This document shows positions 6,383 to 55,056 of a DNA stretch of 64,000 bases, piece by piece; the first letter of the stretch is position 1; every line of letters begins with the position of its first letter. Made by a program: the position numbers and the translations under genes. The notes beneath the pieces were generated by a model. That model was not told where the DNA came from and searched no databases. It was given only the letters and a program-made list of their open reading frames with translations. Source of the DNA: Onthophagus taurus (taxonomy: Eukaryota > Arthropoda > Insecta > Coleoptera > Scarabaeidae); contig NC_091975.1 of NCBI RefSeq assembly GCF_036711975.1, forward strand, positions 560,501-624,500. The letters are read 5' to 3'.

Positions 6383-9343
6383 AACGATGAAATTGTTGCT
6401 TTTTCAAATTATTAAGGGTGACACTCTGGAATTGGAACGTGTTATAAAAGAACTTTTAGAACAAAAGTTGTAGCAAATTTTATTCTTAACAATACTGTCC
6501 TCTTGCACTTTTGCTCTTGGATGCGTCAATATCGGGAAAAATACAAAAATATGAAAATTTGATGAATATGTTGTTTTTTCAAATTTTTAAAGGTAACACT
6601 CTGGAATTGGAACATGTTATAAAAGAACTTTTAGAACAAAAGTTGTAGCAAATTCTATTCTTAACAATATTGTCCTCTTGCACTTTTGCTCTTGGATGCG
6701 TCAATATCGGGAAAAATACAAAAATATGAAAATTTGATGAATATGTTGTTTTTTCAAATTTTTAAAGGTAACATTCTGGAATTGGAACATGTTATAAAAG
6801 AACTTTTAGAACAAAAGTTGTAGCAAATTTTATTCTTAACAATATTGTTCTCTTGCACTTTTGCTCTTGGATGCGTCAATATCGGGAAAAATACAAAAAT
6901 ATGAAAATTTGATGAATATGTTGTTTTTTCAAATTTTTAAAGGTAACACTCTGGAATTGGAACATGTTATAAAAGAACTTTTAGAACAAAAGTTGTAGCA
7001 AATTTTATTCATAACAATATTGTCCTCTTGCACTTTTGCTCTTGGATGCGTCAATATCGGGAAAAATACAAAAATATGAAAATTTGATGAATATGTTGTT
7101 TTTTCAAATTTTTAAAGGTAACACTCTGGAATTGGAACATGTTATAAAAGAACTTTTAGAACAAAAGTTGTAGCAAATTTTATTCTTAACAATATTGTTC
7201 TCTTGCACTTTTGCTCTTGGATGCGTCAATATCGGGAAAAATACAAAAATATGAAAATTTGATGAATATGTTGTTTTTTCAAATTTTTTAAGGTAACACT
7301 CTGGAATTGGAACATGTTATAAAAGAACTTTTAGAACAAAAGTTGCAGCAAATTCTATTCTTAACAATATTGTCCTCTTGCACTTTTGCTCTTGGATGCG
7401 TCAATATCGGGAAAAATACAAAAATATAAAAATTTGATGAATATGTTGTTTTTTCAAATTTTTAAAGCTAACACTCTGGAATTGGAACATGTTATAAAAG
7501 AACTTTTAGAACAAAAGTTGTAGCAAATTTTATTCTTAACAATATTGTCCTATTGCACTTTTGCTCTTGGATGCGTCAATATCGGGAAAAATGCAAAAAT
7601 ATGAAAATTTGATGATTATGTTGTTTTTCAAATTTTTAAAGGTAACACTCTGGAATTGGAACATGTTATAAAAGAACTTTTAGAACAAAAGTTGTAGCAA
7701 ATTTTATTCTTAACAATATTGTCCTCTTGCACTTTTGCTCTTGGATGCGTCAATATTGGGAAAAATACAAAAATTTGAAAATTTGATGAATATGTTGTTT
7801 TTTCAAATTTTTAAAGGTAACACTCTGGAATTGGAACATGTTATAAAAGAACTTTTAGAACAAAAGTTGTAGCAAATTCTATTCTTAACAATATTGTTCT
7901 CTTGCACTTTTGCTCTTGGATGCGTCAATATCGGGAAAAATACAAAAATATGAAAATTTGATAAACATGTTGTTTTTTCAAATTTTTAAAGGTAACACTC
8001 TGGAAATGGAACGTGTTATAAAAGAACTTTTAGAACAAAAGTTGTAACAAATTTTATTCTTAACAATATTGTCCTCTTGCACTTTTGCTCTTGGATGCGT
8101 CAATATCGGGAAAAATACAAAAATATGAAAATTTGATGAATATGTTGTTTTTTCAAATTTTTTAAGGTAACACTCTGGAATTGGAACATGTTATAAAAGA
8201 ACTTTTAGAACAAAAGTTGCAGCAAATTCTATTCTTAACAATATTGTCCTCTTGCACTTTTGCTCTTGGATGCGTCAATATCGGGAAAAATACAAAAATA
8301 TAAAAATTTGATGAATATGTTGTTTTTTCAAATTTTTAAAGCTAACACTCTGGAATTGGAACATGTTATAAAAGAACTTTTAGAACAAAAGTTGTAGCAA
8401 ATTTTATTCTTAACAATATTGTCCTATTGCACTTTTGCTCTTGGATGCGTCAATATCGGGAAAAATGCAAAAATATGAAAATTTGATGATTATGTTGTTT
8501 TTCAAATTTTTAAAGGTAACACTCTGGAATTGGAACATGTTATAAAAGAACTTTTAGAACAAAAGTTGTAGCAAATTTTATTCTTAACAATATTGTCCTC
8601 TTGCACTTTTGCTCTTGGATGCGTCAATATTGGGAAAAATACAAAAATTTGAAAATTTGATGAATATGTTGTTTTTTCAAATTTTTAAAGGTAACACTCT
8701 GGAATTGGAACATGTTATAAAAGAACTTTTAGAACAAAAGTTGTAGCAAATTCTATTCTTAACAATATTGTTCTCTTGCACTTTTGCTCTTGGATGCGTC
8801 AATATCGGGAAAAATACAAAAATATGAAAATTTGATAAACATGTTGTTTTTTCAAATTTTTAAAGGTAACACTCTGGAAATGGAACGTGTTATAAAAGAA
8901 CTTTTAGAACAAAAGTTGTAACAAATTTTATTCTTAACAATATTGTCCTCTTGCACTTTTGCTCTTGGATGCGTCAATATCGGGAAAAATACAAAAATAT
9001 GAAAATTTGATGAATATGTTGTTTTTTCAAATTTTTAAAGGTAACACTCTGGAATTGAAACATGTCATAAAAGAACTTTTAGAACAAAAGTTGTAGCAAA
9101 TTTTTATTCTTAACAATATTGTCCTCTTGCACTTTTGCTCTTGGATGCGTCAATATCGGGAAAAATACAAAAATATGAAAATTTGATGAATATGTTGTTT
9201 TTTCAAATTTTTAAAGGTAACACTCTGGAATTGGAACATGTTATAAAAGAACTTTTAGAACAAAAGTTGTAGCAAATTTTATTCTTAACAATATTGTTCT
9301 CTTGCACTTTTGCTCTTGGATGCGCCAATATCGTGAGACAAGA
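6383..9343 (+). repeat. 175-bp satellite array (about 17 copies)
   Basis: A head-to-tail array whose landmark ACACTCTGGAATTGGAAC recurs at 6421, 6596, 6771, 6946, 7121, 7296, 7471, 7645 and onward, a period of 175 bp (174 where one T is missing). Monomers are nearly identical and AT-rich. The block 7296-8169 (five monomers) is repeated almost exactly at 8170-9043, giving a higher-order repeat of 874 bp. No open reading frame of note. The array ends within a monomer at about 9343. Confidence 0.95.
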
Positions 9344-13586: not shown

Positions 13587-15420
13587 ATATGGAAATTCCG
13601 TAGTGCTAGAAGGCGAACAATTTTAAATGACGTGCTCCTTTTAACAATAACGATGAATTAATACAATCAACTTTAGCAAAAGATGGATGGATGACCTTAC
13701 GCGTCCATTTTCTTCCATGCAAGATAAGTGGGGAAACTCTGGGATGATGACGACAATGCCATAGAAAATCAATATGCTGTAATTTGCTAAATATGCTTAT
13801 GACATCGTTGATTCTGGATAATGAAAAGTATTTTTGTTTTGTGATTAGAATGAATTACTACATAAATAAATTGAAAGATGTCTAAATGTTTATAAGAAGA
13901 GAAATAAGCGAGAAAGAGATATTATTTGCAAGGAGACCGTAAAAGGTTCGTCAACCTGCTCTAAATTCAACCGTTAGCCGGCCACATACCGCCACATTTT
14001 CAACCTTCTTTAACAAACCGACCCAAAATGACGACGACGAAACGCTTATCGTTTCCGTTTCGAACCGATAAGAGTTTTATCAACGTGTTGTTTCCTTTTA
14101 AAAACCTTACCAAAAAGAAAAGGTGCTCTATTTTATTATTTTGTGTCTTTAAATTTTATTTCTTTCTTTCACTTCTTGTTAAAAGCTGGTGTTAACATGT
14201 GTTATTTTTTTGACAGTAAATTTATCAACGCCCAAGTTTCTTTTTAAGCCGACGGTTTTTACATCATTAAATTAGTCGGTTAATTAATAGTATAATTAGT
14301 ACATTGTAGAAAAGAAGTTGTAAGATTGAATAAAAAAATTGTTTATTAAATGTTGAATGAAGAATGACAGATGATAAACAATTCCTTATGAATTATTGAT
14401 AACCGAGTTTATTAACTTGTGTAACAATCGGTCGACCATCGAGAGACTGGCTTTAATTGGACTTGTTCAAGAAGGGACACCCACACATCTCGTCTTTCTC
14501 GATCTTTCTCATCATCATCTCGTTCTTCTTCCTACTCGACCATCTCGGTGGCGTCTCTTTGAAGAAAACGATCTTACTCTTTGTATCCGGCGCCACACAC
14601 GCCTATGCTTTCTCACTTTTATTTTCTCGTTGTCTGCAACCTCCACCATATCCATATATGAAGAAAACATACTTGAATAAGGAACACACAAAAGACTTTT
14701 AAGTTAATATTTACTGTTTATTTTATTTGTGTTTTTTTCAAAACAACATTGAATTGAAAAATTCTTGGTTAACTAAAATTACTCCCCTTCTTTTCTTTAA
14801 ACCGTCGCAAGTTATATATACGGAGTTGCTCGCCCCGGTAATAAACCAATAAATAACGTGTCTAATAATACCCTCTCACTCTGGAGTTTTCGAATGGCAG
14901 CGCTTCCTTCCTCGTGTAAAATTAGATGAGAGAGGCGAATGCAGAAGGGGACAAATTCTTTTCATTATCATTTAAAATGCGCGCCAAAAACTATTTACTT
15001 ATTATCAAATATGTAAAGTTTTTTTTCCGTTGAGACGAAATTCACTTTCACTCGAGTAAAATCGTTTCATTGTTCCTCATGAAAAATCTCGCGCGTTTTC
15101 GCGACGCGATGTCACCTGGAGAAATCGAGGCGAGGTTACATAAAATCAGACTATAGTTTGAGTAGAAATTTATCTTGTTTTTTTGGGTTAAATTAAATTG
15201 TTTTCAAAATTCATTTAAACTTTTATGGTATGAAGTCTAATTCAGAATGTTTCTAGTTCTAGTGATAGAGAACTAACACTACCGTTATTACTAGACTTGG
15301 AACTAGAATCTATATCTATGCATAAACATCGAAATAGCAAATATGACAATTAACACTCTGGAATCTGATTGATTCATCAAACCAATTAAATTTAATCACG
15401 AAACAATTTTGATTGGTTTA
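13587..15420. other. Intergenic DNA, no gene recognised
   Basis: Mixed AT-rich and moderately GC-rich unique sequence. The overlapping frames at 14396-14702 lie in a pyrimidine-rich tract and have no recognisable domain. No RNA gene seen. Confidence 0.4.
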
Positions 15421-15576
15421 AATTGGCTTGGCTTGACTTAGTTTGCGTTGGGTTGGATTTTCCGCGATCCCAACCCAATCCAAGTCAATCCAATCTAAGA
15501 CAAATCAAGTCAAGCCGAAGATTCGCCTTTGGGTTGACTTGAGTTGGGTTGGCTTGACTTAGGATAGGTTGAGACC
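15421..15576 (+). repeat. GGGTTG-rich palindromic repeat, left part
   Basis: The sequence is built from GGGTTG/TTGACTTGGG words and their complements. It can fold: GGGTTGG at 15450 pairs with CCCAACCC at 15469, and a CCAACCCAATCCAAGTCAA arm is mirrored by TTGACTTGAGTTGGGTTGG across the loop near 15520. Related copies lie at 18378-18490, 19087-19125 and 25000-25045. The last 16 bases (15561-15576) are the left target duplication of the R1-like insertion. Confidence 0.7.
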
Positions 15577-18377
15577 AGGAACTTGACACGAAGATACGAA
15601 GGAAAAAAGCGCCCGGACCGGATAACGTAACACCTGAAATACTGATCGCCAGTGTTATGGGAAATAAGAGGACGTCCTTGAGTATTTATAACGAGTGTCT
15701 GTCCCAGGGCGTTTTCCCAAAAGTTTGGAAAAGGGCAAATCTAGTCCTGATACAGAAGCCAAAAAAGGATGTAGAGGGGAACCCCGCGTATGCTTAGAAA
15801 ATGTCATGGCTAAACTCCTGGAAGTTCTCATTCGGGACAGGCTGAACGAGGAAATAGAGGACAAAAAGCTATTGAGCGAGAACCAATATGGGTTGAGGGC
15901 AGGATATCAAAAATAAGGCGCTTAAGAACCAGGACCTATGTCTGATGATCTTGCTTGATGTTGAGAATGCGTTTAACTCTGCTCCATGGGCTGGAATAAT
16001 ACGCGCCCTGGAGAGAGGAGGCGTCAGAGGATACCTTGTGAGGATGATCCAAGCCTACCTGTCGGAGAGGGAGGTGGTGGCTCCGAACGGAACAGCTCCC
16101 ATACTGTTCCGTTCGGAGCGGGGTTCCACAAGGTTCGATACTACTTTATGACGAAATACTGCGAATGGATATAGAGCGTGGAGTGAGATTAGTGGCATAT
16201 GCTGATGATCTTGCCCTCATCGTATGCGCCAAAACCAAGGAAGAGGTAGAGGGCAAGGCTTGTTACGCGAGCGAGAGAGAAGACTAAACGAGATGGGAAT
16301 CAGGGTGGCGGCCAAAAAGACCGAAGTGGTAGTGCTACAAGGAAGACGAAAGGTGCCAGAAATGAAGGTTGTCATTGAAGGCCAAACGGTGGAAAGTTCA
16401 CCAATGGTAAAATACCTGGGGGTTTATCTCGATAAGGACATGAGAATGACGGCGCATATCAGGGAGATCACGGAAAAGGCTCTGAAGATGGCTAATATAC
16501 TTAGGAAGATCATGCCAAATGTGGGGGGACCATTGAGGTCTTATATATAATCTAGAGTGCGTATGCTGTTGTCCCCACCACGCCTAAAATGAAGCCAGAA
16601 CGGTCGCCATGTTAGATGTACCAACTTAGCGGGAAATTCGAAATTCTTATATATACTTATGCAAGAATTTACATTATTATAAACTGGAAAGACAGAAAAT
16701 AATAACCAAAACAAAACATTAATTTTTTATTGATAAATAATTATTAATTATAATTATATTTTAAGAGAACTTAATAATTTTTAGCCATACCCCTTATAAT
16801 TAACAAAAACTAAGAAGAAAATATTTAAAGCAATTCCGATTGATCACGTCAACCTTTGCTTATAAATAATTGTTAGTTTATTTTAAAAAAACTGAACAGT
16901 CCTTAATAATAAACTTTACTTGAACTTCAATTGAAGACCTTGCTGCAAGAAGGGAGTAGCTCCATTTATCAAGAGAAGGAGTTGTTCCCTTCTTATACCG
17001 AGGTCTTTAATTGTTAATTCCAAGTCAAGTAACCAGAAACATTTTATGGACTGTTGTAAATAATCGTCCAACCTATCAAATTATAAAAAACATATGTGAA
17101 ACGAAAAGAATTCGAAAACTTTCAACATAAAACAAATTTTAATAAAAATAACAATATGTTTATGAGAATTGTGAGGTTATAATTGTAGGTACAATAGAGA
17201 CTTGAAACTGTAGCTAAGTTCAGGTCGGTACATCCAACATGTCTGACTTTCTGATTACCCCCACCACCACATACGCTCTCTAGATTATATATAAGACCTC
17301 AATGGGGGGGACCAATAAGCAGCAAAAGGAAACTGCTAGCTACTACGGTTACGTCGGTCTTGCTGTATGCGGCGCCCACCTGGAGTAGAGCATTAAAATA
17401 TAAGTGCTACAGGAAGATGCTTAACGCAATAAACAGGAAGTTAGCGATAAGCATAACATCAGCGTATTGCACGGTCTCTGCAGAAAGTGTCGAGGTGATA
17501 GCTGGTATGCCACCGATGGACCTGCTGGTGGAGGAAAGAGTCTCCCTACACAAAAGAGGGAGATGAGGATATGGCAGAATAGGTGGGATCAGTATGATGG
17601 ATGAGCCAGGACCATTATTCCGAAGGTAAAACCATGGATGGAGAGAAAGTGGGGGGAAGTTGACTACTTCCTAACACAGGTGATAACGGGCCACGGTATT
17701 TTCGGAACATATTTATGTAAGATCGGGAAAACATCATCTGCACAGTGTTGGTTCTGTGGGTTAGTGGATACACCAGAACATACGGTGTTCCACTGCCCGA
17801 AGTTTGCGGCGAACAGGACGAGGTGTTTTGATGTGTGTCGGGAAACGGTGACCAAAGATAACATCGCGACACTAATGTTAGCCGATGGCGAGATCTGGGA
17901 GAAAATCGGAGGGTACCTTAGAAACATTATGAAGACCAAACAGGAGGAGGAGTGGAGAAGAGAACGGGCAGAGAGGGAGCCGGATGGCAGCGCGATGGAG
18001 GTGCATGGCGAGGAGGATCGAGGAAGAGAAGAGGGGGATGTTTCCCCCTACGCCTGGTAAGTTTATGTTGTGAAGAATTTCAAAAAGTTGAAGATTTGTT
18101 TTTTTTACCATTTCATACCATAACAATCAAAATGGTGGGGACGAGGGCCGACATGAAATTGATGGATTGGTGTAACAGAGAGATGTAGAGATGAGAGCGA
18201 AATTGTAGAAAGTGAAGACCACTCCGAAGAAATGCCCGGAAGGGCGGTTCCGGAGAGAGAAGACAAGGAAAGGGGTTTTTAGTGGGTTGGGGTCGAAGAC
18301 ACACTATCTGGCCGCCCAACACCCCAGGCCAGATGTCTGTTTAGCAGATTTTCCCCGACCTCGTTAAAAAAAAAAAA
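15577..18377 (+). mobile_element. R1-like LINE with target duplication and nested MITE
   Basis: A 5'-truncated, plus-strand non-LTR element with poly(A) tail (18366-18377). It is flanked by the 16-bp direct repeat AGGATAGGTTGAGACC at 15561-15576 and 18377-18392. RT motifs seen: KAPGPDNVTPEIL start, VWKRANLVLIQKPKKD, LLSENQYG, LMILLDVENAFNSAPW, LVAYADDLALIV (about 16195), KYLGVYLDKDMRM. After the MITE (16532-17303) the frame resumes with SSKRKLLATTVTSVLLYAAPTW and ends in a Cys-His knuckle (CWFCGLVDTPEHTVFHCPKF, about 17745). Internal deletions, for example at 15906, and frameshifts show it is dead. No RNase H is present. R1-clade placement is inferred from motif style and the 3' end. Confidence 0.85.
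16532..17303. mobile_element. 772-bp MITE with long terminal inverted repeats
   Basis: Both ends read ATTGAGGTCTTATATATAAT inward (16532 on plus, 17303 on minus); imperfect inverted similarity continues for roughly 100 bp (for example ATGTTAGATGTACC versus ATGTTGGATGTACC). It is flanked by the 9-bp duplication GGGGGGACC (16523-16531 and 17305-17313, with one extra G on the right). Removing the element and one duplicate restores the LINE codons N-V-G-G-P-I-S-S-K. A 9-bp duplication with long inverted repeats suggests a Mutator-like (MULE) relative. No transposase is encoded. Confidence 0.85.
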
Positions 18378-18447
18378 GGATAGGTTGAGACCGCAAGAAA
18401 TCTAACCCAATCTAAGCTAAGTCAAGCCAAGCTGAAGGTTTGCCTTT
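18378..18447 (+). repeat. GGGTTG-rich palindromic repeat, right part
   Basis: Continuation of the palindromic target interrupted by the R1-like element: after the duplicated 16-mer it reads CTAACCCAATCTAAGC and then the complementary TTGGGTTGACTTGGG words. Joining it to 15421-15576 gives two tandem hairpin-forming units. Confidence 0.65.
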
Positions 18448-18725
18448 GGGTTGACTTGGGTTGATTGGGGTTGGGTTGAGTTTTCACCAAGGATCAATCC
18501 TGGGGCTGACGTTATGGAATGTGTCTTCGATAACTTATGCTGACGATGTGGCTATTATTGTAACGGGATGAAGTACAGAGGAAGTAGGGGAAACAGCGAA
18601 AGTATTGAAAGGATAAGATATAAAATTGGCCCTCGAAACGACGGAGTCTGTTCTGCTAAGAAGCAAAAGAACTGGAAGACACTTTTGCGAATAGACTCTA
18701 CGTAGTATCATCATGAACTAAAAAT
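18448..18725 (+). repeat. Direct repeat A1 (278 bp) with RT relic
   Basis: Identical or nearly identical to 19087-19364, 639 bp downstream. It starts in GGGTTGACTTGGG words and then carries a decayed LINE reverse transcriptase piece with ITYADDVAIIVTG and LALETTESVLLRSKRTG. The frame is interrupted. Confidence 0.85.
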
Positions 18726-19086
18726 TGAGGACGTTCTTGAGTATTTATAACGAGTGTCTGTCCCAGGGCGTTTTCCCAAAAGTTTGGAAAAGGGCAAATC
18801 TAGTCCTGATACAGAAGCCAAAAAAGGATGTAGAGGGGAACCCCGCGTATAGGCCTATATGCCTAGAAAATGTCATGGCTAAACTCCTGGAAGTTCTCAT
18901 TCGGGACAGGCTGAACGAGGAAATAGAGGACAAAAAGCTATTGAGCGAGAACCAATATGGGTTCAGGGCGGGAAGGTCGACGGTGGACGCGATTAGGAGG
19001 GTCCAGGGAATGGTAGAGGATATCAAAAAGAAGGCGCTTAAGAACCAGGACCTATGTCTGATGATCTTCCTTGATGTTGAGTATGC
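18726..19086 (+). pseudogene. R1-like LINE internal fragment between direct repeats
   Basis: Encodes RTFLSIYNECLSQGVFPKVW through RPICLENVMAKLLEVLIRDR and FRAGRSTVDAIRRV to CLMIFLDVE, the N-terminal RT region. It is nearly the same sequence as 15665-15965 in the larger R1-like copy, but retains the segment RPI and the stretch deleted there at 15906. Both ends are internal to the LINE, so it has no poly(A) tail; it is bracketed by the 278-bp repeats. Confidence 0.85.
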
Positions 19087-19364
19087 GGGTTGACTTGGGT
19101 TGATTGGGGTTGGGTTGAGTTTTCACCAAGGATCAATCCTGGGGCTGACGTTATGGAATGTGTCTTCGATAACTTATGCTGACGATGTGGCTATTATTGT
19201 AACGGGATGAAGTACAGAGGAAGTAGGGGAAACAGCGAAAGTATTGAAAGGATAAGATATAAAATTGGCCCTCGAAACGACGGAGTCTGTTCTGCTAAGA
19301 AGCAAAAGAACTGGAAGACACTTTTGCGAATAGACTCTACGTAGTATCATCATGAACTAAAAAT
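19087..19364 (+). repeat. Direct repeat A2 (278 bp)
   Basis: Second copy of 18448-18725; the two match base for base in every stretch compared. It ends at CATGAACTAAAAAT. Confidence 0.85.
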
Positions 19365-19388
19365 ATCTAAATCAGTAATAAAAATAAA

Positions 19389-19405
19389 CGCCCCCGGGTG
19401 GGCTC

Positions 19406-19445
<40 letters not shown>

Positions 19446-19462
19446 AATTGCGCCACGGAGGC
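19389..19462 (-). tRNA. tRNA-Asn (GTT)
   Basis: The minus strand gives a 74-nt cloverleaf: acceptor GCCTCCG pairs with CGGGGGC, D-arm GCGCAATTGGTTAGCGC, anticodon arm TTCGGCTGTTAACCGAA with anticodon GTT, and T-arm GGTGGTTCGAGCCCACC, with discriminator G. Box A and box B promoter elements are intact. It looks functional. It stands alone right of the LINE cluster. Confidence 0.95.
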
Positions 19463-19469
19463 TATGAAT

Positions 19470-21455
19470 CCTCGGCCTGCTTCGATAAATAAACAGAAAA
19501 TTACATAAAATACTTAAATAACGATCAATAAATTAAAATTGATCCTGAATTTTGATTAATTTTAAAAGTGGATTAAGTTCACTTTCTAAACAAAATATCA
19601 GAAAGTCCAAGTGGAGAAAGATGTATTTTTCTCCCGAAAAATGAAATCGATCCTTTCTATTTGCATACTTACTTAGTTGGACGAATATCAAACTGTAGTA
19701 GTAGTTCCTTTCTTTGATCGTAGCAAAAAAAAGTCGTCTCACTTTCTATTTAGTTAAATCGAGATACAACGTTTTAAATAAGTACTTAAGAAACTTCCTT
19801 TTTGATATAAAAGTAATTTATTAATCCGATTAATTATTGGTTAAATGAATTGTACCACTTCTTCTTCAAGAATTATTACTGTTCGAAAGATCGAAAGTGG
19901 TAATCGTTAGAATCGTTATATCGTTAGCAACACAGTCACTTGCACTTTCTAACCGGGGACGTTTATGACACAATTCTATTATGACAATAATATTACGTCA
20001 TTGTTAAGTTTCACCTTTGCAAACATTTTTTATCATTCATTTAGTTTATTATATATAAAAAACCGGGGTGATTCCTTTTAAATGAAATAATTGAGCACCA
20101 TAATTAAAATTGTATGTGGGCGAATTAAACCGATTAATTCCCGCAATAAAAACCGTTATTAAACCAAATTGGATTTCTCCTCGAAATAACGTTAATTAAT
20201 TGTTCAACTCAATTCACGTCAAAATATTTTCACTTTTATTAGTTTCTTTTGGTTCATTCAAATTTTCTTATCACCTGTTAATAAACTTGATAAATTATCT
20301 TTGATATCGATGGCAACCCAAAAACCCGGTTAATTCGATATTTATTACCAACCGGGCAGATGTGCGTTGTCAAGACATTTTTTCTTCTTAAATTTACATT
20401 TTATTCATCACCATAATTACACACACATTTATTTCATATTGAATTTTATCATAAAAATAAGTAAAGATGTGATGAATAAGATACAACACCTGAAGATGGA
20501 ACAAAAAAGAAAAAGGAAGAACCTGAAGATGAGAGTTTATCAGATCTGGTTTAGTAACTGGTTCGTTTATAAATAAAACTGTGCAAATTGCTGAGGAGTT
20601 GGTTCAAAAGTTGTAGAAAGCGTTATTTTACAAAATGTATGTACACTTCGATTATTCCACTTATCGATTGGAATTGCGGCTCCACAACAACTCGCCGGTA
20701 GCAAGTAACAAGTTGCTTGGCATAATGCTATCCGAGCTTAAAAATCAATGGGAACGGTTGCACGTACGCTCAAGTGACTACATAAGTTCGGTATAGAGAA
20801 AGAAAGAACGATGTTAGGTTAGGTTCATAGGGTGAATGTACCATTTATAGTTTACAATTTCTTCAGTATCTTCAAAATAACTACATTTTGGTTATGGTTC
20901 ACTCGTTAATAAATGAAAATAGGGAATCACATATGTGTAATAGACAATGGGGACGAACCCTCCCCCTAAAGTGAATCTCCAATTTCCGAGTTGATTACAT
21001 CGAACGAACCGCCACTCATCCAATCTTAGTTAACAATCGCAATTAAACGGTTTGCTCATGAAATAATCAACCCCTTCCTACCCCGTAAAAGACACAAAAT
21101 AAAACTCGCCGTCTTAAATTACCGACACAATTTCAATCTCCGGTTATTACCATATCAGCCCCCTAAGGGGATGGTGGAGGAACCGTGTTGAATTTGTTGG
21201 GATGGGAAAAAAAGATATAGAAAGGGGCTTTTCCGTAGTGTATTTTGATTCTATGAAAATCGAACCTGCATGAGAAACGATTCTGGGCCACGTGACCAGA
21301 AACGTGAGGGTTAAATTTTTGAATGAAGACTAAATTGGGGTGGATTTTCACGGTGTACGGTCATTAGTTAAAAGATGAGAGGGTGATATTTTAATTTGAC
21401 TCTTAGATCAATAATGTTTGAGCCATTTTTACTAATTTATACATTGCTAGGGCTA
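19470..21455. other. Intergenic DNA, no gene recognised
   Basis: AT-rich unique sequence between the tRNA-Asn gene and the I-like copy B. Short frames (for example 20367-20576 and 21163-21351) show no recognisable domain. Confidence 0.4.
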
Positions 21456-23587
21456 TTATTATTATTATTATTATTGCTGCCGGGCTGAGGAGGGCGGCCC
21501 CTCTCGTTACCGCGACCTATAAGATCTATTGTAACTTTAGCCCTCCAAAGGTTTAGGGCAAATGTAGGTCCTTAATGAACCTTAGTATTGTCCTGAGGTC
21601 TTGAACCTTTATGTCGGTAGGAGTTTTACCGAAGACGTTGTGCCTCTGGCGACGCAATTGCACAGTATATGTTCAGCAGTTTCTGACTCGTCGTTGCATA
21701 GTCGACAAGTTTGATCCTCAGCTTGTCCAATGTGGAAGAGGTGGTATTTTAGGGGCACATGGCCGGTTAGGTAGCCTGAGAGCGTTCTTAGATCCCCTTT
21801 GCTGAGGCATAAAACCTCTTTGGTTTTGTTTTGCGACGGAGTTATCATACTCTGTGACCTGGAAATTCTTTCCAGCGTATCTTTGAAACCTCCCAGTTGT
21901 TGATTATTTGTTTTAGGTGGCTTTTTTGTAGTCCACATCCAGGTTGGAGTCCAATGAAGGGCGTGTTTGCCGCCTCTTTGGCCAGCTTGTCGGCCTTCTC
22001 ATTGCCCTCAATGTTGCTGTGACCTGGAACCCACCATTGGGTAACATCATTGCCCCTAGCGAGTTCTCTCAGGTTGTTGGTGCACTCTCTAGCCACACGT
22101 ATAGGCCTGAATTGCCTTTAAGGCGGCCCGACTGTCTGTGAAAATGTTTATGGATGCACCTTTTTGTCCCTTCTGTAGGTTCAAAGCGGTGCAGAAGTTT
22201 ATAGCAAGAACTTCTGCTTGGAAAATTGTTAAGTCCGAGCTGAGGGGCAATTTGATGTGGCTATTTGGTCCACTGATGCCCATGCCTACTCCAGATCTTA
22301 CTGTCTTTGAAGCATCGGTGTACCAGGCTAGGGCTCCTCTTTTTAGTTGAGGCCCAATCATCCCTGCTACTAAATATGACCTTATACGGTTGGTTGAAAT
22401 TGTATTCCGTCGGTATAAGGTCCCTTTTTAATTTCAATCAGGTGATTTAGACATGGGTCTTTGAGGATCTCGGGATGTCCTCTGAGGTTACCCTGTATCA
22501 ACTTGAGTGAAGAAACTGTTTTCACTGATAAGGCTGCCTCTTTTTGTATATATAAATGGAGCGGTGTGAGATCGAGTAGGGCTTCCAAAGCAGCCGTCGG
22601 ACAGGATCTCATTGCACCCGTTATGTTAAGACATGCTAACCGCTGGACTTGTGCCAGCTGTTGTTGAGCTGTCTTAAGTTTTGTTTTTGGCCACTAAACC
22701 AATGAGGCGTAGGCGACCATGGGTCTGATTATTGCTACGTAGGCCCAATGAGCCATTCGTGGTTTGAGACCCCAGTTCCTTCCTAGGAGCCTGCGGCAGA
22801 TCTGGTTTGCCATGATGGCCTTTTTCCTCACCTTATCTAAGTGTGAGTTCCAGTTTAGTTTACTGTCAAGTATTACCCCTTGGTATTTAGTTTCTGTTTT
22901 GAGGTTAATAGTTCTGCTTTCAATGGAGATTCTCCGAGTGAAAGGGACTATTTCGATTTTATTGGGATTGATGCTGAGCCCATTGCTTCTGCACCAAGTA
23001 CTGGTGAGTAGTAGGGCTTTCTGCATTAGCTGAGTTATGATTGAATCATATTTACCTCGGATTGTGATTACCAGGTCATCAGCATACCCTTGTATCTTAA
23101 ATCCGTTTTTAGTTAGGGTGTTCATCAAGTCATCAACTACCACTCACCATAATAGAGGTGATATCTTTATAGTCAGCGACTCGCCTCCCAGACTGGCTGT
23201 GATCTGCCGACTTTTCAACATGGCTATACACCACTTGATTGTCGACGGATGTATGTCTTTTACGTTTAAAGCCTTCTCTATGGATTCATATCAGGTGTTA
23301 TCAAACGCACCCTCTATATCTATGAAAGCACAAAGGGCTATCTCTTTGGTTGCAATTGCCTCCTCTAAGGTGCTAGTCAAAGCATGGAGAGCGGTAATTG
23401 TTAATTTTGCTTTCTGGTAAGCATGTTGGCTAGGGTGGAGTGGATTTGTGACAAGCACTCCATTCCTTAGGTATTGATCGATTACCTTTTCCATCCTTTT
23501 GAGGAGAAATGAAGTTAGGCTAATTAGTATGAAGACCACCTTTACTTTCCTCCATAGAGTGGGTATATAGCTAAAGCTGTAGCTAGC
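21456..23587 (-). mobile_element. I-like LINE, copy B, 3' part
   Basis: Minus-strand counterpart of copy A. From the 5' side: YIPTLWRKVKVVFI and SLTSFLLKRMEKVIDQYL (23560-23470), HPSQHAYQKAK, ALCAFIDIEGAFDNT, GYADDLVITIRG, KYQGVILDSKLNWNSHLDKV, RNWGLKPRMAHWAYV, RNase H (LAWYTDASKTVRSG, IFTDSRAALKAIQ, WWVPGHSNIEGNEKADKLA) and the CRLCNDESETAEHILCNC knuckle. It ends with (TAA)n at 21456-21478. It extends further 5' than copy A. The block upstream of the palm (normally containing CPQGG) is disrupted, and other frameshifts are present. Confidence 0.87.
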
Positions 23588-24165
23588 TATAATAATAATA
23601 ATAATAATAACTTTATTTAAACAAAGTACAGCATGGTACAGTATTGACGTCAAAAGAAAAGAAAACAATTAATAGTGTTCACATAAAGGAAATGCCAACT
23701 ACAAATAATAAAATATAACAATTTCCGATGATTCATTTCTCGGTCATCCATTCAAAGTATTCTTGCACAGTATAGTATTCATTTTCCAAGAGAATATTCT
23801 TGACAGTGATTCGAAACTGTTTTACTTCCATGCTTCTTGTTTCCAATGGTAGTGCGTTATATAATTTGACGGCTATATAATCGTATGTGTTTTGTGATTT
23901 GACTACTCGGTGATATGGAGTCACAATATTTTCTTTGTATCGGGTGTTTATTATTATGAGTATACTCTAGACAGGAGCGTATAAAACAGCACGGCAAGGT
24001 AAGTATTTTTAATTTTTTAAATTGGCTTCTACAACTCTCTTGATTTTTTAGTCCAGCCAGTATCCGAACTGCCTTCTTTTGCATAACGAAAATGGCTTCC
24101 ATTTCTCTAGATGCACCCCACGTAATGATCCCATACGTCGCGATAGCATGGAAATATATATAGGG
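23588..24165 (-). mobile_element. CR1/Jockey-like LINE 3' fragment nested in copy B
   Basis: The minus strand encodes ATYGIITWGASREMEAIFVMQKKAVRILAGL, then (frameshifted) YHRVVKSQNTYDYIAVKLYNALP and a stop at about 23733. A 3' UTR follows with AATAAA and a (TTA)n tail at 23588-23612. This is the C-terminal end of a LINE without RNase H. It sits between the two halves of I-like copy B, so it inserted into that element. 5'-truncated and dead. Confidence 0.8.
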
Positions 24166-24600
24166 ATATTATTATTGGGAGAAGGTCTTCTAAGCCTTTT
24201 TGCAGAAAGATAGGCAGAATTCCATCTCCTCCAGGTGATTTTAGGGGCTTGAAATTCGAGATAGCCCACCTTACTTTGTTGGGTGTGAAAATATTCCCAG
24301 CTGTGCTGCGAACCCTACCTGATGGACGGGCATTACTTCAGGGTCGGCATCTGCATGTGGGCAGACTTTTGAGGAAGGAAAGTGTGCTCCAACGATTCCT
24401 TAGCATCCTCTGTATATTTACCATCTTGTTTGCATAGGTGGCCTAGATCAGTGTTGTGATCTTTTCCCAAGATCTTATGCAGACGAGCAACTGTAGGCGT
24501 ATTTCCATATCTTGGCCGAGGTGCATCTTTCAGTTTACTTGGGTTACCTTGATTCTTGCCTCCGATAGCACCATGGATCAGTAGACAGTGGAGAAAAAAT
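24166..24600 (-). mobile_element. I-like LINE, copy B, 5' part
   Basis: The minus strand encodes the linker and RT start of a Jockey/I-type ORF2: VARLHKILGKDHNTDLGHL, GKYTEDAKESLEHTFLP, PNKVRWAI-like residues and FKPLKSPGGDGILPIFLQKG, in several frames. The next expected residues (YIPTLWRKVKVVFI) appear only after the nested LINE, at 23565. The two blocks are therefore halves of one element. The endonuclease is absent. Confidence 0.7.
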
Positions 24601-24996
24601 TGATTCAAAACGTAAACTGTGATAGAACAGAAGATGTGGAGCATACTTTCTTTGAATGTGACAGATGGCATAGAATCAGAACAGAAATTAACACAAACCA
24701 AGGAACTGGAAGCTAGGAACATGGTGAAGGGTTACGTCCAGTCCCTCTACGACGATACGAGACAGAGAGAGGTGGTGGAGTTCTCTAAAAGAATAAGTGG
24801 TCAGAAAATGTCCCAATCGCGGAGAAAGGTAAAAGAGGCAGAAAGTAGACACTCCGAAGAAAACTCGTGAGGGTGACCCCGGAGAAGACTAGGACAGGAG
24901 TTTTTAGTGGGTCGGAGATCCAAAAATGTGCTCCAACCCCACACTATCCGAACGTCTAAGGTCCCAGACCAGATGTTTGTCTAGCAGATAAAAAAA
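24601..24996 (+). pseudogene. R1-like LINE 3' end
   Basis: A plus-strand piece encodes EDVEHTFFECDRWHRIRTEI (Cys-His knuckle of the LINE C-terminus). A 3' UTR follows that matches the larger R1-like copy in layout: CACTCCGAAGAAA, GTTTTTAGTGGGT, then CCAGACCAGATGTTTGTCTAGCAGA and an A-run at 24990-24996. Right after the tail comes the same GGGTTG palindromic repeat seen at 15.4 kb. The left end is joined to the minus-strand I-like element. Confidence 0.75.
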
Positions 24997-25050
24997 GACT
25001 TAGCTAGACTTGGGTTGAGTTTTCCGCGATCCCAACCCAAGTCAAACTTT
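24997..25050 (+). repeat. GGGTTG palindromic repeat next to R1-like tail
   Basis: Contains CTTGGGTTGAG, then TTTTCCGCGATCCCAACCCAA, the same words and loop as at 15450-15476. The arms can pair. Confidence 0.65.
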
Positions 25051-26600
25051 CCATTGGTTCAAGCAACCTTATTAATTTTATATTTATAGATCAATTAAAT
25101 GCAAATCGTTTAATTTTTACGTTTAGACATTAACGATGAGAAAGATGTATTCTTTAAGATAGAGTTGTTGTTGTTTTTCGAATAAATTTCCATAAAATTA
25201 TAATGACAAAGTGGCCCCTTGTACGCTTTGTTGAGCGTTTAAGCGCGCGACTAAATTTGTACGGAGGACGAAAATACGACCGAATCTTTTGTGAGCGTAT
25301 TTATAAGCGGATATATGTACAGGGTATCCGAAAATAGAGTTCTCGTCCCCCGTTTCCCGAGAATGACGACGACGCGTTTCGACAAAAACTATTTTGAATC
25401 CGATGAATTCGAAAAATTAATATAAAAATTATTAATGTTGAGTCTTATTTATATAATGTACTTTTTCCATCTTCCGTTGAGAACAAAGTCTCGCATCTAA
25501 ACTACCCCTGAAAGCTTCGAGAAGCTTCCACAAACCACCCCTCGCGATGACCGTGTAGAGAAAGAGATAAATTCTCTCCGCGCCGCCACTGGTAACTTGG
25601 TTCTCCGTTTAGTTTCTCTTTCTCTCTCGCACTTAAGACAAAGCTATTTAGAAACTTATTGAATAGTAGAGAAAGAGTATTGTGGGAAGCACTGCGCAGC
25701 TGTCGAGGGTGCTTTCTACGTCACTGGAAATAAAAACTAAGAATTAAGGGGGTTGTTTACGGTTAGAGTTAAAATCTGCACTTATACTTTATTTTTATTT
25801 TAATTCTTGTGATCTTTGAAATTAATTTTTTTTAGATTTTAATTGATTATGAAGGTTTAATAAACAAATTTAATTGTATTTGCTGCAATAAGAACGGGAA
25901 GTTCTTGGAACTTTATTTATAGTCCAGAGGTATATAAGCGACTGCGTTTCAATTATAAATTTCCAAGTAAAGCGTCCTACACGAAGCCGTTTACAAACAA
26001 GGTTCGAAATGTTCCTATAATTCTATATCATAACAATTCGTAGTTACTAAGACGAGATATATAAGGTCTTTTTGGATTTTAAAGTAGGCTTAGTCTCGCG
26101 TGTCGCTTGATTTACACTTATGGCGAAAATATGAATTGCAAAATAGCTCGCAAGTCCAATTCTAAAAGCGGAATAACTGGGATAGTTAAAAGGTTAACTT
26201 TCCCGGGTCATTCTCTTCAAAAAACGATTTTTAAATAAAAATTTATCGATTTATTTATTTTTGTTTAAAAACATGGGATTTTCTTTTGATTTCAAAAGAT
26301 GTTTTGAATGAAATCGTTTAGGAACGAGACAGATTCGAGTCTATTTTGTAAACAGATTATAATAGAGGCAATAAAATTAATCATTCCGAATAGGCGGACG
26401 ACGCCTTTTATAATGATTAAGTACCCAACAACTTGTTTTACAAATTTTAAGTGGTCCAAGATTAAGTTGGGATGTGAATTTGCCAAAAAAATTATTTTAC
26501 ATCCGCAATTTCTATCTTTACAACTAACATTTATTAAAAAAATATAAAAATTTATTATTTCGAACGCATTTAATTAATAACTATTTCATAAAGTTATTTA
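25051..26600. other. Intergenic DNA, no gene recognised
   Basis: Unique sequence; a moderately GC-rich part lies at 25200-25740 and AT-rich DNA follows. The frames at 26292-26547 are antisense mirrors of each other without recognisable domains. Confidence 0.4.
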
Positions 26601-28439: not shown

Positions 28440-28690
28440 TTCATTGCTTTGAGGTTGATTGACTTGTAACTTTGTGATTGGCTTGCTTTGGGCTTGATTT
28501 CGAGTTGAATATTTTATGGTTTCGTTCTTTTGGAATTGGATGAGTTTGATTTAGGGTTGGGTTGGAATGTTGTGGGTTTGGTTTGGCTTGCGTTGGATAT
28601 AAATTCAGTTATTTTGCATTGAGGTTGGATTGGTTTTAAATTGAGGTTGAACTTTGTGGTTGAGTTCCCAAACCAACCTAAGTCAACCAC
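28440..28690 (+). repeat. Degenerate GGTTGA/GGTTTG-rich tract
   Basis: A 250-bp strand-asymmetric G/T-rich tract of words such as GATTGGCTTGC, GGGTTGGGTTGG and GAGGTTGGATTGG, ending with the complement CCAAACCAACCTAAGTCAACC. It looks like a diverged relative of the GGGTTG palindromic repeat at 15.4, 18.4 and 25.0 kb. Confidence 0.5.
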
Positions 28691-32329: not shown

Positions 32330-34322
32330 AATTAATCTTTTCAATTTTATATTTGGACATATTTAGTCTATTTTTTTACAAGATTAAGCAAATTTAAATC
32401 ATTTTCGACTAATCTTGATCACATTAGACAAATTTTGGTCATTTTAGACAATTTTGTACAACCTTTGTTTTAATAATTTTAAACTCATTTTAATTATCTT
32501 ATCCAGTTTTGTAAACTTTTGCTAAATTTAGGTCGTTTTAGACAAATTTTTGTCATTTTAGACATATTTTAGTCATTTTAGACAAATTTTGATAATTTTA
32601 AACAATTTTGTACAAGCTTTTTTTTAATAATTTTAAACTCATTTTAGTTATCTTATCCGGTTTTGTAAACTTTTGCTAAATTTAGGTCGTTTTAGACAAA
32701 TTTTTGTCATTTTAGACATATTTTAGTCATTTTAGACAAATTTTGATAATTTTAGACAATTTTGTACAAGCTTTTTTTTAATAATTTTAAATTCATTTTA
32801 ATTATCTTATCCGGTTTTGTAAACTTTTGCTAAATTTAGGTCGTTTTAGACAAATTTTTGTCATTTTAGACATATTTTAGTCATTTTAGACAAATTTTGA
32901 TAATTTTAGACAATTTTGTACAAGCTTTTTTTTAATAATTTTAAACTCATTTTAATTATCTTATCCAGTTTTGTAAACTTTTGCTAAATTTAGGTCGTTT
33001 TAGACAAATTTTTGTCATTTTAGACATATTTTAGTCATTTTAGACAAATTTTGATAATTTTAGACAATTTTGTACAAGCTTTTTTTTAATAATTTTAAAC
33101 TCATTTTAATTATCTTATCCAATTTTGTAAACTTTTGCTAAATTTAAGTCGTTTTAGACAAATTTTTGTCATTTTAGACATATTTTAGTCATTTTAGACA
33201 AATTTTGATAATTTTAGACAATTTTGTACAAGCTTTTTTTTAATAATTTTAAACTGATTTTAATTATGTTATCCGGTTTTGTAAACTTTTGCTAAATTTA
33301 GGTCGTTTTAGACAAATTTTTGTCATTTTAGACATATTTTAGTCATTTTAGACAAATTTTGATAATTTTAGACAATTTTGTACAAGCTTTTTTTTAATAA
33401 TTTTAAACTCATTTTAATTATCTTATCCAGTTTTGTAAACTTTTGCTAAATTTAAGTCGTTTTAGACAAATTTTTGTCATTTTAGACATATTTTAGTCAT
33501 TTTAGACAAATTTTGATAATTTTAGACAATTTTGTACAAGCTTTTTTTTAATAATTTTAAACTGATTTTAATTATGTTATCCGGTTTTGTAAACTTTTGC
33601 TAAATTTAGGTCGTTTTAGACAAATTTTTGTCATTTTAGACATATTTTAGTCATTTTAGACAAATTTTGATAATTTTAGACAATTTTGTACAAGCCTTTT
33701 TTTAATAATTTTAAACTCATTTTAATTATCTTATCCGGTTTTGTAAACTTTTGCTAAATTTAGGTCGTTTTAGACAAATTTTTGTCATTTTAGACATATT
33801 TTAGTCATTTTAGACAAATTTTGATAATTTTAGACAATTTTGTACAAGCTTTGTTTTAATAATTTTAAACTCATTTTAATTATCTTATCCAGTTTTGTAA
33901 ACTTTTGCTAAATTTAGGTCGTTTTAGACAAATTTTTGTCATTTTAGACATATTTTAGTAATTTTAGACAAATTTTGATAATTTTAGACATTTTGTACAA
34001 GCTTTTTTTTAATAATTTTAAACTCATTTTAATTATCTTATCCGGTTTTGTAAACTTTTGCTAAATTTAGGTCGTTTTAGACAAATTTTTGTCAATTTAG
34101 ACAAATTTTTGTCATTTTAGTCATTTTAGACAATTTTGTACAAGCTTTGTTTTAATAATTTTAAACTCATTTTAATTATCTTATCCAGTTTTGTAAACTT
34201 TTGCTAAATTTAGGTCGTTTTAGACAAATTTTTGTCATTTTAGACATATTTTAGTCATTTTAGACAAATTTTGATCATTTTAGACAAATTTTGATAATTT
34301 TAGACAATTTTGTACATGCTTT
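32330..34322 (+). repeat. 154-bp satellite array (about 12-13 copies)
   Basis: The landmark GCTAAATTTA occurs at 32521, 32675, 32829, 32983, 33137, 33291, 33445, 33599, 33753, 33907, 34060 and 34203: a 154-bp period with shortened units at the right edge. Each monomer contains internal near-repeats of TCATTTTAGACAAATTTT (about 18-20 bp). A two-monomer block (33137-33444) marked by AATTTAAGTCG and AACTGATTTTAATTATG is repeated at 33445-33752. Very AT-rich and non-coding. Confidence 0.95.
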
Positions 34323-35361: not shown

Positions 35362-38300
35362 ATTGCCAAAATTGGTATAAAATTAATTTCTTGAAGGATT
35401 CTTGTGGAAATATCACCAATTATTAATTAAAGTATCCTCTTTTTAACGCAAAAAGCCGTTTTGAAAAATCACTTTTAGTTTTTGAGAAATAAATTTTTGA
35501 AATGATCGACAATTTTGCAATTTTCGCCGATTAAGTTTTAAAAATTCGTATAAAATCCATTTCTTAGGATATGAGTATGAAAATTTCCCAACGTGTTAAT
35601 AAAAGTGTCCTCTTTCCAATGAACCATCCCGTTTTGAAAAATAACTTTTAGTTTTTGAAAAAACAGTATTTGAAATTTTGATAAAATTTTCAATGTTGCT
35701 ATTTTCATCGATAATTTTCAAAATTCGGTATAAAATTAATTTCTTGAAGGGTCCTTGTGGAAATATCACCAATTATTAATTAAAGTATCCTCTTTTTAAC
35801 GCAACAAGCCGTTTTGAATAATCACTTTTAGTTTTTGAGAAATAAATTTTTGAAATGATCGACAATTTTGCAATTTTCGCCGATTAAGTTTTAAAAATTC
35901 GTATAAAATGCATTTCTTAGGATATGAGTATGAAAATTTCCCAAAGTGTTAATAAAAGTGTCCTCTTTCCAATGAACTATCCCGTTTTGAAAAAGAACTT
36001 TTAGTTTTTGAAAAAACAGTATTTGAAATTTTGATAGAATTTTCGATGTTGCAATTTTCATCGATAATTTTCAAAATTCGGTATAAAATTAATTTCTTGA
36101 AAGAGTCTTGTGGAAATATCACCAATTATTAATTAAAGTATCCTCTTTTTAACGCAAAAAGGCGTTTTGAAAAATCACTTTTAGTTTTTGAGAAATAAAT
36201 TTTTGAAATGATCGACAATTTTGCAATTTTCGCCGATTAAGTTTTAAAAATTCATATAAAATCCATTTCTCAGGATATGAGTATGAAAATTTCCCAAAGT
36301 GTTAATAAAAGAGTCCTCTTTCCAATGAACCATCCCGTTTTGAAAAATAACTTTTAGTTTTTGAGAAAACAGAATTTGAAATTTTGATAAAATTTTCAAT
36401 GTTGCAATTTTCATCGATAATTTTCAAAATTCGGTATAAAATTAATTTCTTGAAGGATCCTTGTGGAAATATCACCAATTATTAATTAAAGTATCCTCTT
36501 TTTAACGCAAAAAGCCGTTTTGAAAAATCACTTTTAGTTTTTGAGAAATAAATTTTTGAAATGATCGACAATTTTGCAATTTTCGCCGATTAAGTTTTAA
36601 AAATTCATATAAAATCCATTTCTCAGGATATGAGTATGAAAATTTCCCAAAGTGTTAATAAAAGAGTCCTCTTTCCAATGAACCATCCCGTTTTGAAAAA
36701 TAACTTTTAGTTTTTGAGAAAACAGAATTTGAAATTTTGATAAAATTTTCAATGTTGCAATTTTCATCGATAATTTTCAAAATTCGATATAAAATTAATT
36801 TCTTGAAGGATTCTTGTGGAAATATCACCAATTATTAATTAAAGCATCCTCTTTTTAACGCAAAAATCCGTTTTGAAAAATCACTTTTAGTTTTTGAGAA
36901 ATAAATTTTTAAAATGATCGACAATTTTGCAATTTTCGCCGATTAAGTTTTAAAAATTCGTATAAAATCCATTTCTTAGGTTATGAGTATGAAAATTTCC
37001 CAAAGTGTTAATAAAAGTGTCCTCTTTCCAATGAACCATCCCGTTTTGAAAAACAACTTTTAGTTTTTGAGAAAACAGTATTTGAAATTTTGATAAAATA
37101 TTCAATGTTGCAATTTTCATCGATAATTTTCAAAATTCGGTATAAAATTAATTTCTTGAAGGATCCTTGTGGAAATATCACCAATTATTAATTAAAGCAT
37201 CCTCTTTTTAACGCAAAAAGCCGTTTTGAAAAATCACTTTTAGTTTTTGAGAAATAAATTTTTGAAATGATCGACGATTTTGCAATTTTCGCCGATTAAG
37301 TTTTAAAAATTCGTATAAAATCCATTTCTTAGGATATGAGTATGAAAATCTCCCAAAGTGTTAATAAAAGTGTCCTCTTTCCAATGAACCATCCCGTTTT
37401 GAAAAACAACTTTTAGTTTTTGAGAAAACAGTATTTGAAATTTTGATAAAATTTTCAATGTTGCAATTTTCATCGATAATTTTCAAAATTCGGTATAAAA
37501 TTAATTTCTTGAAGGATCCTTGTGGAAATATCAGCAATTATTAATTAAAGTATCCTCTTTTTAACGCAAAAAGCCGTTTTGAAAAATCACTTTTAGTTTT
37601 TGAGAAATAAATTTTCGAAATGATCGACTATTTTGCAATTTTCGCCGATTAAGTTTTAAAAATTCGTATAAAATCCATGTCTTAGGATATGAGTATGAAT
37701 ATTTCCCAACGTGTTAATAAAAGTGTCCTCTTTCCAATAAACCACCCCGTTTTGAAAAAGAACTTTTAGTTTTTGAAAAAACAATATTTGAAGTTTTGAT
37801 AAAATTTTCAATGTTGCAATTTTCATCGATAATTTTCAAAATTCGGTATAAAATTAATTTCTTGAAGGATCCTTGAGGAAATATCACCAATTATTAATTA
37901 AAGTATCCTCTTTTTAACGCAAAAAGCCGTTTTGAAAAATCACTTTTAGTTTTTGAGAAATAAATTTTTGAAATGATCGACAATTTTGCAATTTTCGCCG
38001 ATTAAGTTTTAAAAATTCGTATAAAATCCATTTCTTAGGATATGAGTATGAAAATTTCCCAAAGTGTTAATAAAAGTGTCCTCTTTCCAATGAACCATCC
38101 CGTTTTAAAAAATAACTTTTAGTTTTTGAAAAAACAGTATTTGAAATTTTGATAAAATTTTCAATGTTGCAATTTTCATCGATAATTTTCAAAATTCGGT
38201 ATAAAATTAATTTCTTGAAGGATCCTTGTGGAAATATCAGCAATTATTAATTAAAGTATCCTCTTTTTAACGCAAAAAGCCGTTTTGAAAAATCACTTTT

Positions 38301-47800: not shown

Positions 47801-49254
47801 TTTTTTATCAAAATAGATGTTGGGAAATGAAAGAAAACTAAAAATGCTTTAAAATGAGTCCAAATTCGATGTATTTAACTTTATTTGTTGCTGAGATATC
47901 AATTAAATAAAAAAAAATTTGACAGTTGACAGATCTTAACCTAACTTTTTTTATATTTAACGTAAATATGTCGAGTTTGGTGTTAAATTAACGGATTTTT
48001 AATGATCTTTAAGATTACGTTTTTTGTTATGTCCTTAAATCGTTAGTTTTTTAAAAAAAATTTTATCAAAATAGATGTTGGGAAATGAAAGAAAATTAAA
48101 AATGCTTTAAAATGAGTCCAAACTTGATGTATTTACCTTTTTTTGTTGCTAAGATATGAATTAAATAAAAAAATTTGACAGTTGACAGGTCTTAACCTAA
48201 CTTTTTTTATATTTAACGTAAATATGTCGAGGTTGGTGTTAAATTAACGGATTTTTAATGATCTTTAAGATTACGTTTTTTGTTATGTCCTTAAATCGTT
48301 AGTTTTTTAAACAATTTTTTATCAAAATAGATGTTGGGAAATGAAAGAAAACTAAAAATGCTTTAAAATGAGCCCAAACTCGATGTATTTAACTTTATTT
48401 GTTGCTAAGATATCAATTAAATAAAAAAATTTGACAGTTGACAGGTATTAACCTAACTTTTTTTATATTTAACGTAAATATGTCGAGTTTGGTATTAAAT
48501 TAAAAGATTTTTAATGATCTTTAAGATTACGTTTTTTATTATGTCCTTAAATCGTTAGTTTTTTTAAATAATTTTTTAGGCATTCATTAGAAATTCGTCT
48601 TCTTGAAGAAAAACATTCGGAAGAAGTCCGTTTATATCAAGTACAAATAACCCAAGCTCAACAATTATTAGATAATTTACAATACAAATTACAACATCAA
48701 CAATTAAAAAAGCATGATATGGCAAAACAATTACATAAATTGATGGAAGCTCAATGGTTAGAAGCATTAAAAATAATCAATAATGGAAGAAGTCCTTTAA
48801 CCGATCTAGATCTAACGAATCAATTAAATCAATTAAAATCGAAATCGTATAATAATATGGAAGAAGTTTTAGAAATGGGGATAGATGAAGTTCAAGAACA
48901 ACAAACTAAAAATTCACAAACAAATTATTGTCAAAACGTTCCAATGGAGCCTTATCACATGGAAACTCCGTTGACGAGCCGCCAACCTAAAAAACCGGAT
49001 GTGGATGATGTCCATAAATTTATTCATATGTTAATGAATAAACAAAATGCAAGTCCAACTGGGGATCATAATCAACCCACCAGGAATCAAACGGGAAGTG
49101 TTCATCAAGTTGATTTTACAGCATGGCAACAAGTAATTCAATTAAATTTTACTTACAAATTAAGATTAATAATAATAATTTAATAATTTTTTTTTAGCAA
49201 GAAGACATTCGAGGTAAAACCAAAGATAAAAAAATTAAACCACCTTGGAAATAA
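44850..49254 (+). CDS. CNTROB: Centrobin-like centriolar coiled-coil protein
   Basis: Five exons read by eye: 44850-44969, 45023-45154, 45209-46740, 48580-49132, 49198-49254, all with GT/AG borders and matching phases, giving about 797 residues. The N-terminus (MSETDDTNELVLIPPDFFSC) and the Ser/Thr-rich region to about residue 285 are predicted disordered. From about 290 to 690 runs a long Glu/Lys/Gln-rich coiled coil. The order RRQRCEQLIQQLQ, then KAWEQVAGRLQTLVEER, then QLHKLMEAQWLEALKII, plus the short basic C-terminal KIKPPWK, follows the layout of centrobin, which acts in daughter-centriole assembly and microtubule organisation. Identification is by layout and short blocks, so another centrosomal coiled-coil protein is possible. 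Intron 3 (46741-48579) is nearly all tandem repeat. Confidence 0.7.
46790..48575 (+). repeat. 255-bp tandem array filling a centrobin-like intron
   Basis: Seven units; GTTGGGAAATGAAAGAAAA starts at 46798, 47052, 47308, 47563, 47819, 48077 and 48333 (254-258 bp apart). Each carries AATTTGACAGTTGACAGG, CTTAACCTAACTTTTT and TATGTCGAGTTTGGTG. The last unit runs directly into the 3' splice site (ATTTTTTAG at 48571-48579), so the repeat supplies the polypyrimidine tract. Confidence 0.95.
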
Positions 49255-54947: not shown

Positions 54948-55056
54948 ATATTGACAATCAAAGTAACTTAACAAAATGTGATAATAAGCTTTTCTTAGAT
55001 ATTAATGACAATAACAACTTTGTTATACAATTTATTCTAATTAATTTATCTTATTT

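Follow-up and report, generated by a model that had tools for sequence, protein, structure and literature searches.

Among the long interspersed nuclear elements (LINEs) of the R1 clade, those of the SART kind are the closest described systems to the one reported here. SART1Bm inserts between the TT and the AGG of the telomeric repeat TTAGG, joins its poly(A) to AGG and needs three repeats; changing the A to C (TTCGG) abolished its retrotransposition, and according to the authors of that work it cannot do without the A of TTAGG (PMC7265360). Similarly, SARTTc from Tribolium castaneum, which has TCAGG telomeres, is a SART in a non-canonical insect repeat (PMC7265360, PMC5537684), and SART insertions, in the canonical and in other motifs, are reported in most of the studied Coleoptera and Hemiptera and in many Hymenoptera (PMC12036569). 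Telomeres of TTGGG have been described in some beetles, in a lacewing, in a damselfly and, together with TTAGG, in a bee (PMC8233369, PMC12564400). The text of PMC12036569, its motif table left out, contains no mention of TTGGG, and the TTGGG lacewing Nineta flava is reported to have no SART or TRAS (PMC12564400). Here we analysed a window of 64,000 nucleotides from the beetle Onthophagus taurus (the whole stretch C10:560501-624500 of a 290.8-Mb assembly in 33 contigs; C and L numbers label contigs and loci). Its R1-like LINEs are very probably dead copies of SART-type, telomeric-repeat-specific retrotransposons of the R1 clade, which lack long terminal repeats, in a host whose telomeres are (TTGGG)n. 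What we observed, and what carries this assignment, are the 3' junctions, their polarity and phase, their terminal location, target duplications at internal sites and, within a terminal array, a full-length relative.

Two SART-type 3' ends lie in the window, both on the plus strand. The first copy (15577..18377) consists of part of open reading frame 2 (ORF2, from the reverse transcriptase (RT) to the C-terminal zinc knuckle), a 3' untranslated region and a poly(A); it is decayed, and its match to the 1032-amino-acid (aa) ORF2 of a relative starts at about residue 466 and comes in broken pieces. A preliminary description of the window had called it a full insertion with a 16-bp duplication. 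The poly(A) and the identical flanking copies of GGATAGGTTGAGACC (15562..15576 and 18378..18392, plus strand) hold, but the element is 5'-truncated within ORF2 and carries an insert of ~770 bp, and the duplication measures 15 bp (16 only with the last A counted). The second copy (24600..24996, its 5' limit being approximate and taken from sequence reading) ends in a short poly(A) at 24990-24996 that runs directly into GACTTAGCTAGACTTGGGTTGAG and then TTTTCCGCGATCCC, just as that description had seen. The flanks of both 3' ends are one inverted GGGTTG-rich repeat, and it had been proposed that the family targets this palindrome and thus defines a new target class. The association with GGGTTG repeats is indeed beyond chance; its non-random partner is the telomeric repeat. 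Since SART and TRAS elements already make the targeting of telomeres by LINEs of the R1 clade an established class (PMC7265360), no new target class arises.

The evidence comes from the 3' junctions of the family. The search query comprised 401 bases at the LINE 3' end, of which 103 were 3' flank from the window itself, and gave at least 42 matches (40 of 92 candidates were scored), from which we extracted 30 loci. All but L010, which lacks a readable poly(A) junction, and L030, which runs into N, could be read at this point, giving 28 junctions, 27 of them from copies outside the window. After the poly(A), 19 of the 28 junctions, all outside the window (19/27), share at least 10 of 15 in-phase positions with GGGTTGGGTTGGGTT, i.e. 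(GGGTT)3, a cut-off picked after the junctions had been seen and reached at 0.14% of all window positions. The first bases after the poly(A) are GG in 20/28. The 3' flanks of the other copies are therefore far from random sequence, and the part of the earlier proposal that stands is target specificity, with (GGGTT)n and not the palindrome in most cases. The closest relatives of the first window copy behave in the same way as regards the palindrome: L002, from which it is ~6-9% diverged over three aligned pieces, continues with GGGTTGGGTTGGGTTGTAAA and L003 with GGGGTTAGGTTGGAAC, both without it.

In the whole genome, exact A10-GGGTTGGGTT junctions number 22, versus one for the reversed pattern, and 13 of the 22 lie less than 50 kb from a contig end (seven at the end of C6, three at the start and one at the end of C11, and two at the end of C16). 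LINE 3' ends account for at least 13 of these exact junctions: 10 coincide with family matches and three lie in L051. The TRAS-type orientation, with the poly(A) joined to the C-rich strand as in TRAS1Bm, is ruled out: this genome holds no exact A10-CCCAACCCAA junction. As a control, poly(A) runs that are not SART-like were followed by in-phase TTGGG-like sequence in one case out of 146, and that run is L033, itself a SART-like tail; the other group of this control (170 runs classed as SART-like tails, of which 15 had telomeric flanks) was not used, its tail pattern being too loose.

TTGGG is also found at the starts of contigs. The first 10 kb of 17 of the 33 contigs (C1 to C17) were read, and (CCCAA)n arrays, i.e. 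TTGGG, are present at five starts (C1, C2, C5, C8 and C11); the remaining 12 begin with unrelated sequence, masked stretches or, in C7 and C10, telomere-like satellites. The latter (L047:5001-7509 and L050:2501-2968) are 16-bp and 21-bp satellites of CCCAA-like units, ACCCTACCGCAACCCA and CAACCCTGCCCTGCCGCAACC, and are possibly telomere-derived. A profile search for the telomerase gene with PF12009 gave no match, its controls being equally silent.

One such terminal array contains a full-length relative. In L051 (C11:1-10000), a ~6.5-kb element lies between CCCAA arrays; read in the sense direction, GGGTT is joined to its 5' end and its poly(A) is joined to GGGTT at the 3' end. It codes for an 816-aa ORF1 and the 1032-aa ORF2 (both lengths counted from stop to stop). 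ORF2 matches Pfam Exo_endo_phos_2 and RVT_1 above the cut-off, and is thus predicted to provide an endonuclease and an RT, and CCHC zinc knuckles are seen by eye, with Pfam zf-CCHC at 16.8 bits against a cut-off of 20.8. The combination of a Gag-like ORF1 with zinc knuckles and an ORF2 with endonuclease, RT and C-terminal zinc knuckle was found in L051 only. Compared with solved structures, in which the R1 clade is represented by the TRAS1 and R1 endonucleases only, the L051 endonuclease is closest in sequence to that of TRAS1Bm (1wdu, E 3.6e-8), followed by that of R1Bm (2ei9, 1.9e-5). The L051 ORF2 and the first window copy share 28-41% identity in pieces and belong to different lineages, both with terminal members; the window copy clusters with L002 and L003 as part of a larger set that includes the terminal copies L004, L005 and L007.

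Copies at chromosome ends could also arise in the manner of HeT-A and TART, by attachment to broken or free ends without an endonuclease, telomerase then adding TTGGG and the internal copies being relics of buried ends. It speaks for such a process that many copies are terminal and are followed by pure TTGGG; the predicted endonuclease domain of ORF2, the poly(A) facing the G-rich strand and the fixed TT^GGG phase of most copies do not fit it. Neither do the internal copies, which were checked for duplications at 27 loci (the 28 junctions less L004) over ~1.5 kb upstream of each. Seven 5'-truncated internal copies (L014, L016, L019, L024, L025, L027 and L028) have 11-21 bp of their 3' flank repeated upstream, with telomere-like DNA on both sides. 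The cut lies at TT^GGG in L014, L024 and L027 and at TT^AGG in L016 and the window; it cannot be placed exactly in L019, L025 and L028. These internal duplications speak for endonuclease-led insertion into duplex TTGGG tracts, and we consider end attachment very unlikely. The informative cases are L016, L025 and the window, whose two duplication copies are identical to each other and differ from (GGGTT)3 at 8/15 positions. The window target was therefore probably degenerate before the LINE arrived, and because the duplication was already degenerate, the family is one that tolerates decayed targets and also uses internal, degenerate TTGGG-like tracts.

The GGGTTG-rich palindrome can be understood in the same terms. 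Its left part (15385..15576, plus strand) is an interstitial TTGGG-like tract with alternating in-phase runs of TTNNN and NNNAA pentamers around the spacer TTTTCCGCGAT (15458-15468), and its right part (18383..18487, plus strand) holds a mirrored, diverged spacer and additional pentamer runs. The target flank of the second LINE (24997..25048, plus strand) is likewise a degenerate TTGGG-like array, the spacer TTTTCCGCGAT and an inverted array. When the flanks of the first copy are joined with one duplication copy kept, they show a strict 5-base phase, with TTNNN runs of 11, 7 and 4 and NNNAA runs of 9 and 7; the rest of the window (15300-25200 excluded) contains just one run of 7, rich in T, of the TTNNN kind and none of the NNNAA kind. 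The joined empty site folds as a palindrome of ~200 bases at -133.6 kcal/mol (RNA parameters), versus -76.2 kcal/mol (s.d. 6.2) for 30 mononucleotide shuffles. It consists of degenerate TTGGG-like pentamers whose orientation alternates, and represents a decayed internal stretch of such repeats. A loose GGGTTG/TTGGG-like patch at 28440-28690, followed by CCAACCTAAGTCAACC, resembles the palindrome in its make-up.

Could the palindrome, through its spacer or a hairpin, nevertheless be what the family specifically recognises, as had been proposed? Two SART-type 3' ends in the window palindrome, and a third as a tail-only remnant at L033 on another contig, would favour this. The palindrome is far from abundant: a search in 290.8 Mb with a 21-base core pattern, which more diverged copies would escape, found the core at only three sites within one mismatch (two exact, both in the window, and one with one mismatch) and at seven sites with three mismatches, one of which (L039) is clearly of the same kind. 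Nor did the predicted enrichment downstream of the poly(A) of other copies appear. The best 20-base CCCAA-like score within 110 bases of the 3' junction was taken as a test for an inverted array; none of the 27 non-window copies has one (best scores at most 13/20), whereas the test detects the known sites, with 14, 15 and 18 of 20 at the two window junctions and L033, and 2/537 window pieces reach 14 as background. The commonest flank is plain (GGGTT)n. The rarity of the core and the 0/27 inverted arrays lead us to discard the palindrome as the family's target, and a new target class of this sort is extremely improbable.

The same 11-nucleotide (nt) spacer between inverted TTGGG-like arrays recurs at three unlinked loci, on C10, on C2 (L033) and on C11 (L039, with two changes). 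At L033:1448-1520 (C2, near 12206637), a tail remnant of ~25 bases adjoins the palindrome; 19/20 core positions match an L051-type 3' end, followed by A8 and a TTGGG-like array, and no ORF2 match was found in L033, which holds the tail alone. SART-type 3' ends are therefore present at two or more palindrome loci (C10 and C2), and such LINEs have hit the palindrome more than once; these ends, at two or more of the three spacer loci, come from two element lineages. It is tempting to speculate that the inverted arrays and their spacer on C10, C2 and C11 form a dispersed telomere-like foldback element, one that offers telomere-specific LINEs an internal landing pad or acts on them as a decoy, an idea that we regard as doubtful. 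The palindrome may have spread as a mobile foldback repeat, or it may be what fusions left behind at scattered places. A likeness between the spacer TTTTCCGCGATCCC and the LINE's own 3' end (at most three mismatches in 14) is too weak to use.

Fusion brings up a further possibility, namely that the window copies did not insert here and that the block holding them came from a telomere, reached its internal position through a fusion, an inversion or a duplication, and decayed afterwards. The order array, spacer, inverted array is the one expected from a head-to-head telomere fusion, the tract is telomere-like and the window starts ~0.56 Mb from the start of C10. What speaks against such a transfer is that the identical 15-bp duplications, 8/15 off (GGGTT)3, point to a target that was probably degenerate beforehand, and that the same spacer is present at unlinked loci on C2 and C11; we judge it unlikely. 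We therefore prefer the SART-type assignment with insertion at this site.

Several points weigh against that assignment. Nine of the 28 junctions fall below 10/15: seven score 7 or less (the window copy L001 with 7/15, L011, L013, L015, L016, which is one base out of phase, L022 and L029), and L003 and L023 score 8/15. Some copies therefore lie in sequence that has lost its likeness to telomeres or never had any. In addition, the family copies are related and hence not independent events, and the window flank in the query may favour copies with similar flanks, although no match other than the window itself extended beyond query position 310 of 401. No flank repeat of at least 9 bases was found within ~1.5 kb upstream at 20 of the 27 loci, and in a flank of pure telomeric repeat, a duplication will in part match by default. 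The SART placement itself comes from junctions, phase, location and domains, the tree containing no named SART ORF2. Moreover, one Bombyx SART lineage is said to insert in the opposite orientation (PMC10088271), so orientation is not fully diagnostic.

By analogy with SART1Bm, target choice would be driven by the endonuclease, and the order of strand cuts would follow the same scheme. The enzyme would nick TTGGG arrays on their C-rich strand, at the boundary of TT and GGG, and the poly(A) RNA would be reverse transcribed at the nick, so that the 3' end of the inserted copy would come to face (GGGTT)n. Exact junctions are concentrated at chromosome ends, and internal degenerate TTGGG-like tracts are also hit. 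The window palindrome is very probably one of these tracts, made of inverted TTGGG-like pentamer arrays, and it received two SART-type copies, both in the TT^ phase.

The remaining features of the window include the insert within the first LINE (~16532-17304, listed without strand). Its terminal inverted repeats have arms of 43 bp that are 91% complementary when the flank is counted in, and it is accompanied by a duplication of ~9 bp, GGGGGGACC; the empty site is seen in the relative L003. Downstream, on the plus strand, a fragment at 18726..19086 had been taken as evidence of targeting, bracketed as it is by the repeat. It is a 361-bp internal RT fragment of the window LINE family, and its bracketing arises because a 278-bp segment recurs on both sides: 18448..18725, which holds the end of the pentamer array and a decayed R1-like RT piece, and 19087..19364 are 100% identical. 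This direct duplication and the absent poly(A) rule out a targeted insertion; the duplication may be recent, a product of filler repair or an assembly artefact. A different LINE-like sequence occupies 21440-24400 on the minus strand, bounded by (AAT)n with limits set by eye, and L036 has a similar 3' end with (AAT)n. Satellite arrays lie at 6386-9333, 32424-34293, 35367-43437 and 46794-48578 (periods of 175, 154, 353 and 256 bp), and pieces of genes for prolyl 4-hydroxylase alpha, a ZIP zinc transporter, COX4 and a choline transporter at 51354-63931.

Compared with the described systems, the family has a poly(A) joined to the G-rich strand, a cut after the TT of the pentamer and a location in terminal arrays, the features that mark a SART; the first two, together with an endonuclease and an RT, are shared with SART1Bm (PMC7265360). 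The organisation of the telomere, short repeats interrupted by SART, is that of other Coleoptera, Hemiptera and Hymenoptera (PMC12036569). In contrast to SART1Bm and its TTAGG, the host repeat here is TTGGG, without the A, and degenerate internal tracts are used; the requirement for the A is a property at the level of the species and does not define the family. SARTTc resembles the present case in occupying a non-canonical telomeric repeat, and its TCAGG retains the A. We have therefore filed the family as a case of the known SART kind in a new, TTGGG host, and an earlier report in print of a SART in TTGGG is possible. As SART1Bm does not use TTCGG and the A is described as essential to it, SART-type elements on TTGGG represent a natural case of target co-evolution. 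A comparison of L051-type and SART1Bm endonucleases could reveal how target choice followed the change of the telomere repeat. Similarly, the internal copies, whose tracts are often imperfect and whose apparent duplications measure 11-21 bp, indicate how much decay of the target these elements tolerate.

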